Shown here piece by piece: positions 8,379 to 10,359 of a stretch of 10,362 nt of DNA; the stretch's first letter is position 1; each line of letters opens with the position of its first letter. Source of the DNA: an uncultured Eubacterium sp. (GTDB lineage Bacteria > Bacillota > Clostridia > Peptostreptococcales > Anaerovoracaceae); assembly GCA_946614405.1 (NCBI GenBank), contig CAMOGZ010000034.1:1-10362 (forward strand), in the 5' to 3' direction. The notes under the pieces were generated by a model. The model did not search any database and was not told the DNA's origin. It saw only the letters and a program-made list of their open reading frames with translations. The translations under genes and the position numbers were made by a program.

Positions 8379-8912
8379 TTAAAAACTAGGGGGCGTACTG
8401 ACCCAGATCAATTTGGCTCCCTTGCGGGATGTGAGATAATGCCGTTTCTCCGGCACATAATAGAAGGATTCTCCGGCTTTGGCCGTGTAGCTCTTGCCAC
8501 CGATATGGACGGTCACTTCACCGGATATCACATACCCGAACTCTTCTCCTTCATGGGGCATGTCCTGATAAGTGGATCCGCCGGGTTCCAGCGTAAGACG
8601 AACAGGCTCCATCATGTTCTTCTGCGCATTGGGAACGATCCACTCGATCTTATTGGCCAGCTTGGGATCCACCTTCTCGAAGTAGTCGTCGAAACCGAAG
8701 ACCACAGGCTCTTCCTTCTCTTCATGAAAGAATTCTGAAAGGGATGCTCCCAAGCAGATCAAAATATCCTCCAGTGTGGCGATGGAAGGTGATGTAAGGT
8801 CCCTCTCCAGCTGAGAAATGAACCCTTTCGACAGTTCTGCCCGGTCCGCGAGTTCCTCCTGTGTCAGTCCTTTTGCAATTCTGAGTTCTTTGATTCTGTG
8901 TCCTATCTCCAT
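8379..8912 (-). CDS. XRE-family regulator with cupin sensor domain (PuuR-like)
   Basis: This 177-residue protein has an N-terminal XRE helix-turn-helix (about 6-60; LTQEELADRAELSKGFISQL at 16-35) and a C-terminal cupin domain (about 105-175). The cupin motif contains H120 and E122-E124 (PHEGEEFGYVISG) and later YYVPEKRHYL. Cupin regulators of this form usually sense a small ligand. It is first in the operon with potABCD, which points to a polyamine or similar compound as its signal, by analogy with PuuR. The start at 8912 has AGAGG five bases upstream. The three-half-site operator lies 9-38 bases upstream of the start codon, so it probably represses its own operon and releases, or binds, with ligand. 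It may also act on the divergent hydrolase gene, although the repeats there have a different sequence. Confidence 0.9.
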   Translation of the reverse strand: MEIGHRIKELRIAKGLTQEELADRAELSKGFISQLERDLTSPSIATLEDILICLGASLSEFFHEEKEEPVVFGFDDYFEKVDPKLANKIEWIVPNAQKNMMEPVRLTLEPGGSTYQDMPHEGEEFGYVISGEVTVHIGGKSYTAKAGESFYYVPEKRHYLTSRKGAKLIWVSTPPSF

Positions 8913-8920
8913 AATGTCCT

Positions 8921-8950
8921 CTAAACTTTCTGTTTAGTATTTCTAAACAG
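8921..8950. promoter_or_regulatory. Three-half-site operator of the regulator-pot operon
   Basis: Half-sites CTAAAC (8921-8926), GTTTAG (8932-8937) and CTAAAC (8943-8948) alternate in orientation at an exact 11-base period. The last two extend into a perfect palindrome CTGTTTAG-TATTT-CTAAACAG (8930-8950). The element lies just downstream of the predicted transcription start (near 8957) and upstream of the ribosome binding site, a classic repressor position. One face of the helix would be occupied by adjacent dimers or one asymmetric complex. The regulator encoded alongside is the likely binder. Confidence 0.7.
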
Positions 8951-9000: not shown

Positions 9001-9046
9001 ACTGAAAAAACAAAAAAAGACCTATCGCTATGGTCCCAGGTAAAAA

Positions 9047-9060
9047 GTTAATAAATTAAC
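9047..9060. promoter_or_regulatory. Upstream operator-like palindrome of the hydrolase promoter
   Basis: GTTAATAAATTAAC fits GTTA-N6-TAAC with 6-base perfect arms. Its centre lies about 61 bases upstream of the predicted transcription start near 9115. A second site of the same form, on the -10 element, begins 54 bases downstream. Confidence 0.55.
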
Positions 9061-9079
9061 AAAAAATCTGCTGCAAGTA

Positions 9080-9108
9080 TTGTACTGTATTAGTAAGTTT
9101 GTTATACT
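9080..9108 (+). promoter_or_regulatory. Promoter of the M20-type hydrolase gene
   Basis: TATACT (9103-9108) is a good -10 with an extended TG at 9100-9101. The -35 at 9080-9085 is TTGTAC, 17 bases away, matching only the TTG. A weak -35 with an extended -10 suits a regulated promoter. The start near 9115 gives a leader of about 33 bases with AGAGG at 9133-9137. Confidence 0.65.
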
Positions 9109-9147: not shown

Positions 9148-10359
9148 ATGGATGTAAACAAAGAGATCAACTGGATCACTGAGGCCATCGAGTCCTATGC
9201 CGAGACCTCGATCCGCAGGGGGGAATACTGGCGGGCTCCCTACACTCCGGAGGACAAGGCTGCAGCGGAATTACTCCAGAAATGGATGGAAGAGCGCGGA
9301 ATGACGACCTATTTTGACAGCGTCGGCAATCTCTTCGGCCGTATTGAGGGAAAAGAACCTGGTGTAATCATGACCGGATCCCACAGAGACACCGTTCGTC
9401 ATGGAGGCAAATACAGCGGTGCACTGGGAATGCTGTGCTCCATCGAGGCCGTTGGGGCTTTGTACGAGGAGCTGGGACAGCCCCAGAAGACCGTGGAAGT
9501 CGTGGCCACCGTGGAAGAGGAAGGCTTCCGCTTTTTCTCAAGCTTTATTGGCAGCCGTGCTATCATCGGCAAGCTGACAGAGGATGACCTGAAGGAGACC
9601 GACGATAACGGGATGACCCTGGAAGAGGCCATCACGGAAGCAGGATACTATCACGGCGAGCTTCCGAAAGCCCGGACAGACATCGAGCATTTCCTGGAGC
9701 TGGATACCGAACAGGGCGCCATCATGGAGCGCTCCGGCAAGAATGTGGGACTGGTGCAGTCCATCGTAGGACTGAAGATCGGCAAGATCACCATCCGCGG
9801 GGAACGCGGCCATGCGGGAACCTACCCCATGAGCATGCGTGCCGATGCCGTACCTCTGGCTGCCAAGGTGATCGTAGACCTGACCCGCTGGGCCAGAAAC
9901 CGGAATGATCGTGTGGCATGTACATTCGGAAACGTAGAGGTATCACCGGGCAAGACCAATATCATCGCTGACGAGGTGGTGATCACCTTTGACATCCGCT
10001 CCACCAATGAGTCTTTGATCAATGAGGCGGAGTCCATGCTGAAGGAGTTCCAGAGAGGACTGGGACGAGGTCTGTCACTGGAATATGAGGTGGCCGCCTA
10101 CGATAAACCGGCGGACATGGATATGGACGGTGTCTTCGCCATGCGCGACATCGCCGCCGAAGAAGGGATGAAGTACATGCGGATCAACAGCGGAGCCGCT
10201 CATGACTCCCAGATCATCGCCCAGATCGCTCCATCCAATATGATCTTCGTGCCCAGCCATGACGGGATCGCCCTGACACCCATGGAGTATACTTCTCCGG
10301 AAAGCACCGTGGAGGGCTACACGCTTCTGAAGAAATATTTGCAGAAGCTGGCATGGTAA
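9148..10359 (+). CDS. M20/HyuC-AllC-type amidohydrolase with altered metal-site residues
   Basis: This 403-residue cytoplasmic protein has the normal length and order of the N-carbamoyl-L-amino-acid hydrolase/allantoate amidohydrolase/beta-ureidopropionase group. Motifs seen are GSHRDTV (77-83), GGKYSGALG (86-94), EEEGFRF (123-129), ELDTEQG (184-190), GHAGTYPMSMRADA (221-234, lid/dimer domain), SGAAHD (348-353) and IFVPSHDGIALTP (366-378). Family members hold two metals with His, bridging Asp, Glu, His and His. Here H79 and E125 remain, but the bridging Asp is S90, the ELH histidine is D186 and the late GISH histidine is L376. The frame is intact from ATG to stop and has its own promoter, so it is unlikely to be a decayed gene. 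The start has AGAGG ten bases upstream. It is transcribed divergently from the polyamine-type operon, suggesting action on a related amide or ureido compound. Fold confident; reaction unknown. Confidence 0.85.
   Translation: MDVNKEINWITEAIESYAETSIRRGEYWRAPYTPEDKAAAELLQKWMEERGMTTYFDSVGNLFGRIEGKEPGVIMTGSHRDTVRHGGKYSGALGMLCSIEAVGALYEELGQPQKTVEVVATVEEEGFRFFSSFIGSRAIIGKLTEDDLKETDDNGMTLEEAITEAGYYHGELPKARTDIEHFLELDTEQGAIMERSGKNVGLVQSIVGLKIGKITIRGERGHAGTYPMSMRADAVPLAAKVIVDLTRWARNRNDRVACTFGNVEVSPGKTNIIADEVVITFDIRSTNESLINEAESMLKEFQRGLGRGLSLEYEVAAYDKPADMDMDGVFAMRDIAAEEGMKYMRINSGAAHDSQIIAQIAPSNMIFVPSHDGIALTPMEYTSPESTVEGYTLLKKYLQKLAW

Follow-up and report, generated by a model that had tools for sequence, protein, structure and literature searches.

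E. coli AllC (1z2l, 4pxd) is among the closest described systems, and 1z2l holds the full metal-ligand set His-Asp-Glu-His-His. Enzymes of this kind cleave urea-type bonds with the help of two metal ions. A fourth ligand that is His is a feature of the AllC/HyuC branch; other M20 enzymes have Asp or Glu there, according to the relevant passages of PMC6271292, where the carnosinase-type enzyme CN2 is assigned the ligands His99, Asp132, Glu167, Asp195 and His445 beside a catalytic Glu166, and PepD has Asp173 at the fourth position. Pseudopeptidases, the inactive homologues of metallopeptidases, have lost catalytic features and kept the fold, as appears to be the case here; in the parts of the review concerned (PMC11266112), both occurrences of "M20" that were found are reference DOI strings, and no description of a branch of this kind was found among the papers listed in an open-licence library.

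In the present study, we analysed a window (the whole stretch of DNA, 10,362 nucleotides) from a gut bacterium, an uncultured Eubacterium sp., with the following features:

8379..8912, minus strand: divergent HTH-cupin regulator gene, ahead of PotABCD-type genes; a neighbour not conserved with the M20 gene
9045..9062, strand not assigned: Rex-like box, two mismatches to TTGTTAANNNNTTAACAA
9099..9116, strand not assigned: Rex-like box, one mismatch to TTGTTAANNNNTTAACAA, overlapping the likely -10 and 31 bases before the M20 start
9103..9108, plus strand: likely -10 TATACT, 17 nt after TTGTAC (9080-9085), picked out by eye and absent from the promoter scan (weak -35)
9148..10359, plus strand: M20 protein of the AllC/HyuC type, 403 aa, its metal site broken
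9382..9384, plus strand: H79, ligand His, retained here and lost in 2 of 12 clade rows
9415..9417, plus strand: S90 (AGC) replacing the bridging Asp, which is lost in 11 of 12 clade rows
9517..9522, plus strand: E124 at the catalytic-Glu position, unchanged in all 12 clade rows, and E125, the ligand Glu, present in 11 of them; roles by position (PMC10952681 and PMC6271292, each in part)
9703..9705, plus strand: D186 replacing the ligand His, which is changed in 12 of 12 clade rows
9997..9999, plus strand: R284, at the place of the Arg that binds the substrate carboxylate, unchanged in all 12 clade rows (PMC10952681, in part)
10273..10275, plus strand: L376 replacing the last ligand His, which is lost in 3 of 12 clade rows

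The M20 protein and its ligand positions

The reading frame runs from ATG to stop without internal stops, and was thus rightly called whole in the first-pass annotation. Its product belongs to the hydantoinase/carbamoylase sequence family TIGR01879 (335.8 bits against a cut-off of 204), but its two-metal ligand set is incomplete. It stays below the cut-off of every more specific NCBIfam model listed, and scores 292 bits against the AllC model, the cut-off being 598. The Pfam domains are Peptidase_M20 and M20_dimer, and the predicted structure matches the AllC/HyuC branch over its whole length.

Aligned with AllC of E. coli (1z2l) and the L-carbamoylase of Geobacillus (3n5f), the protein reads H79, S90, E125, D186 and L376 at the five metal-ligand positions of AllC/HyuC. 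S90 stands at the Asp of GGxxDG, D186 at the His of ELHxEQG and L376 at the His of GISH, while H79 and E125 align with the conserved His and Glu; the three substitutions and the two retained ligands that had been read from the sequence by itself are thereby borne out. The protein therefore lacks the His-Asp-Glu-His-His set of a dinuclear metallohydrolase, having H-S-E-D-L, and differs in this from 1z2l. A base-calling error is unlikely, because Ser, Asp and Leu recur at the three positions in P0001, a cluster of its own with 7 member sequences and 99% identity.

The earlier statement that three of the five ligands are lost holds in so far as the canonical dinuclear set is incomplete, with D90 and the last His clearly gone, and is uncertain for D186: since other M20 enzymes normally use Asp as a ligand at position 186 (PMC6271292, in part), "three lost" is an overstatement. 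D186 resembles the Asp at the fourth ligand position of CN2 and PepD and, by that analogy, may be a usable ligand. As far as the alignment can tell, what the M20 protein has clearly lost is the bridging Asp together with the last His, both of which CN2 and PepD keep.

A clade of homologues with incomplete sites

The search for homologues covered 5.8 billion protein sequences, and the best 120 of 923 matches were used. Among these 120, position 90 is D in 108, G in 10 and S in 2; position 186 is H in 108, S in 10 and D in 2; and position 376 is H in 117, N in 2 and L in 1. Twelve clusters have broken sites (P0001-P0011 and P0014, with 88 member sequences) and share 58-64% identity with the M20 protein, P0001 standing at 99%. 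The remaining 108 are at most 54% identical, and 107 of them carry all five ligands, the exception being P0115. The nearest relatives outside the clade, at 44-54% identity, are intact proteins of Emergencia and other members of the bacterial family to which the source organism belongs, with the full ligand set in the rows examined, P0115 excepted. A search with a profile of the clade (best 120 of 973 matches, 7998 candidates scored) ranked the same 12 clusters first, with a drop from 644 bits for the lowest of them to 557 for the protein that follows, and the four new proteins that it brought in all have the full ligand set.

A tree was built from 79 rows, 64 of them outside the clade; the 15 clade rows, a number that counts near copies, all fall on one branch with support 100/100. 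Leaving out the near copies P0001, P0002 and P0010 gives 12 distinct clade rows, in which D90 is lost in 11 (10 G, 1 S), H186 is replaced in every one (10 S, 2 D) and H376 is lost in three (L, N, N); H79 has become N in two and E125 has become S in one, and the non-ligand H222 is N in two. The commonest pattern, H79/G90/E125/S186/H376, accounts for seven rows. Outside the clade, all five ligands are present in 63 of the 64 tree rows, P0115 again departing, and these 63 rows served as the intact comparison set. The proposal that homologues sharing Ser90/Asp186/Leu376 would form a clade was not supported, as that set occurs beyond the M20 protein only in P0001 among the best 120 of 923 homologues; the clade is defined, at the level of aligned residues, by loss of H186 (12/12) and D90 (11/12).

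Among 17 genomes of the genus, four have the clade gene (G000, G174, G198 and G199). Family-wide, a match at E 1e-90 was found in 21 of 349 genomes, and among site-spanning alignments from these 349 the clade-type residues occur only in the same four. The profile search of contigs gave at least 558 relatives, of which 80 were kept. Among tblastn alignments on the fetched loci that span residues 60-380, 131 of 140 show the full set and the other nine are the clade genes of the four genus genomes, a tally in which duplicates are counted and clade genes were fetched more than once.

The clade forms a small natural set of 12 proteins whose common site is partly lost in different ways, with close intact relatives in the family, and opens the question of the order in which a two-metal site is lost and of how the scaffold is used later. 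The names attached to clusters P0014 ("allantoate deiminase") and P0010 ("hydantoinase/carbamoylase family amidase") may misstate function. Outside the clade, P0115 shows a separate partial loss, Ser having replaced the bridging Asp and Gly the catalytic Glu (S90, G124), and its near relative P0120 has an intact site.

Residues around the site

Unchanged in all 12 distinct clade rows are D81, E124, N271, R284, G349, D353 and E380, among others. The catalytic Glu preceding the ligand Glu and the carboxylate-binding Arg are thus found throughout, and Q189 and H222 are kept in 10 rows, H222 being present in the M20 protein. H222 is the His of the HAGT loop, which has its role across the dimer. 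The ligand-binding residues Glu131, Gln196, Arg291 and His385 reported in a part of PMC10952681 for RrCbetaAA would correspond, by motif and spacing, to E124, Q189, R284 and L376.

At least 97% invariance in the 63 intact rows is seen at 52 sites, of which 21 vary in at least one clade member and four are changed in at least half of them; ligands make up 5 of the 21 and 2 of the 4 (Fisher p 0.008 and 0.04, a rough guide only, because the rows are related by descent). Twelve positions, including R252, N253, R255, R333, D334, R345 and A375, are near-invariant in the clade with residues rare in relatives. Position 86 is Gly in at least 97% of intact rows and Asp in 8 of 12 clade rows; counted together with D186, which supplies two, a new acid near the site (position 86 or 186) is present in 10 of 12.

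The earlier idea of a new metal site built from D186, H352 or H371 survives only for D186, as a possibly usable ligand. Intact relatives share H352, which is therefore an ordinary residue of the family and does not mark a new site, and residue 371 varies among H, E, K and R within the clade; both were rejected as replacement ligands. The predicted model is uninformative on the site, because confidence in the active-site loops is low both in the M20 protein and in the intact control P0012 (66 against 75 for residues 81-90, 67 against 70 for 221-230 and 81 against 59 for 371-380), and model confidence was for the same reason rejected as a sign of a disturbed site.

Rex-like boxes in the promoter

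Rex is a repressor that senses NADH/NAD+. Its consensus is TTGTTAANNNNTTAACAA (PMC5367854 and PMC9600882, each in part), and both Rex-like boxes lie in the 235-bp gap between the M20 gene and the divergent HTH-cupin gene. The gap is AT-rich; when it was shuffled 4000 times with dinucleotides preserved, a site of one mismatch or fewer arose in 2 shuffles, a site of two or fewer in 51, and two sites of two or fewer in 1, figures that are optimistic because the Rex motif was chosen for testing after palindromes had been noticed in the promoter.

Across the 1.46 Mb assembly (89% complete), 10 places have at most two mismatches (3 for the reversed control pattern), two of them in the M20 gap. The only other place with at most one mismatch lies 33 bases before a butyryl-CoA:acetate CoA-transferase-like gene (523 bits, below the cut-off of 675), and in Caproicibacterium a Rex site has been predicted before a gene of this type (PMC9600882, in part). 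Of the other places, those on C33, C51, C108, C115, C125 and C186 had their flanks inspected and no clear Rex-type target was found beside them; since, in addition, at least two (on C33 and C51) are inside ORFs, much of the ten-place list is attributable to chance. The source genome has a Rex-type gene, recognised by a match to PF06971, the domain that marks Rex, as do G174, G198 and G199. Gene and promoter box, both predicted from sequence, thus coexist in the source genome. In G174 and G198 a weak site with three mismatches lies about 90 bases upstream of the M20 start; a site of this quality appears by chance in 56 of 2000 shuffles for the G174 upstream region, and the two genomes count as one because they are close relatives. 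No Rex-like site was found in 19.5 kb around the G199 clade gene.

The promoter in the source genome does look regulated, as had been claimed, by Rex-like boxes, and Rex probably controls the M20 gene in this species. The gap being shared, the boxes could alternatively target the HTH-cupin gene. A perfect palindrome, CTGTTTAG-N5-CTAAACAG, lies at 8930-8950 just before the HTH-cupin start (8912), and a second CTAAAC/GTTTAG pair at 8921-8937; these palindromes (8921-8950) are likely to be the operator of the HTH-cupin regulator, distinct from the Rex-like boxes.

Gene neighbourhood

The HTH-cupin regulator was found in 5 of 17 genus genomes (E 1e-30), and together with the clade protein only in the source genome. 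The convergent neighbour of the clade gene in G174 and G198 is a second arginine deiminase; in G199, addA lies upstream and a polysaccharide deacetylase nearby, and PotABCD relatives begin about 6 kb off. As the neighbourhood differs between clade genomes, an operon logic with HTH-cupin and PotABCD was rejected, and since it is unconserved no partner is indicated. The intact relative at L043 is flanked by amidohydrolase and Asp/Glu/hydantoin racemase genes, and neither type was found among ten scanned neighbours of clade genes.

The second arginine deiminase (L038:7267-8508 and L039:7794-9035, convergent to the clade gene) scores just below the NCBIfam arcA cut-off. Such a copy is present in 3 of 4 clade genomes against 1 of 13 others, G199 and G204 also having one, and none was found in the incomplete assembly of the source genome; the co-occurrence was set aside as too weak a functional clue. 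At 95-1108 of the window, a PLP enzyme of the D-cysteine desulfhydrase/D-cysteate sulfo-lyase group falls below every listed NCBIfam cut-off (250 against 289 for the subfamily model, 262 against 450 for CuyA).

Decay, altered chemistry or ligand binding

We regard it as highly improbable that the gene is a hydrolase without use, drifting. The differences in metal positions among clade members would suit such drift. Against it, no break in the frame was seen in any of the four genomes read at the DNA level, the predicted proteins elsewhere are full-length (P0014, at 359 aa, is incomplete), distant members are still 58-64% identical to the M20 protein, and the 12 clade-specific near-invariant positions have been held. 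Decay is also made unlikely by the close species pair G174 and G198, whose clade genes give dS 0.133, dN 0.007 and omega 0.053 in the one pair in which selection was tested, the others being saturated at synonymous sites; the proteins are 98.5% identical, and seven nearby ORFs of this pair have omega from 0 to 0.16. The first-pass view that this is not decay is therefore sustained, and the clade combines the marks of a pseudoenzyme clade, namely shared catalytic-site loss, monophyly and, from that one pair, purifying selection.

Because several ligands are changed, and similar losses occur in the related branch, the usual reaction has probably been replaced by something else. We favour, with moderate confidence, the reading that the M20 protein is a non-hydrolysing, ligand-binding pseudoenzyme, and for the clade as a whole our evenly balanced verdict is a pseudoenzyme branch inside the AllC/HyuC group. 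It would have arisen from an amidohydrolase of the allantoate/N-carbamoyl-amino-acid type, with the AllC-like fold retained, as predicted, and probably dimerising like AllC. With these ligands lost, the canonical water-activating two-metal centre would no longer be held. Residues at substrate-orienting positions are retained (catalytic Glu, carboxylate Arg and Asn271 in 12 of 12, Gln189 and His222 in 10 of 12), and the protein may bind a small ligand that carries a carboxylate, the likely candidates being amino acids, ureido acids and guanidino acids, and act by binding (sensing, buffering or regulation of a partner) rather than by hydrolysis. The acidic pocket, joined in 10 of 12 rows by the new acid (86 or 186), could hold ammonium or guanidinium where the metals were, and in this species the gene would probably be Rex-repressed and induced at high NADH/NAD+. 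A more specific version, which we think rather unlikely, makes it a metal-free binder of amino acids or guanidino acids, Rex-controlled and made at high NADH, in which the ligand's positive group replaces the two metals; that group could sit among the former ligand and catalytic acids and the new acid, with the former carboxylate Arg binding the other end. If true, Rex control would link a sensor or buffer to the redox state.

Fully lost chemistry would not require the catalytic Glu in 12 of 12 rows, and E124 speaks instead for an enzyme with an altered site, a possibility that we entertain tentatively: with one metal (e.g., on H79 and D186) or none, and E124 as general base, it would carry out a different reaction such as hydrolysis of other amides, isomerisation or a lyase reaction. 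One metal is possible in the M20 protein because H79, D186 and E125 are kept, D186 being the acid used here in other M20 enzymes (PMC6271292, in part), and the new acid at 86 or 186 points the same way. P0003, which retains D90 together with E125S and D186, is a possible intermediate, and with H79 it would complete a His-Asp-Asp site like that of other M20 enzymes (PMC6271292, in part), which counts against the pseudoenzyme reading. The altered-site reading is itself weakened by losses that vary by member (H79N, E125S, H376L or N, H222N), a pattern that one shared new metal site would not predict, and by H352 and H371, which supply no clade-wide replacement. For a pseudoenzyme that regulates a partner, a neighbourhood pointing to none is a further difficulty. 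It is quite unlikely, in our estimate, that the protein is a regulatory or structural subunit whose partner is an active M20 enzyme from a different subfamily: there are cases of pseudoenzymes regulating their active cousins (PMC11266112, in part) and the source genome carries six other Peptidase_M20 matches, but a second AllC/HyuC-type match to the M20 protein at E 1e-30 was found in none of the four clade genomes, and none of the flank ORFs, compared with the stretch's own proteins, matched it.

The pseudoenzyme reading, which we prefer, is testable because one clade member (record L050) occurs in Hornefia butyriciproducens, a cultured pig-gut species (PMC7738495, in part).
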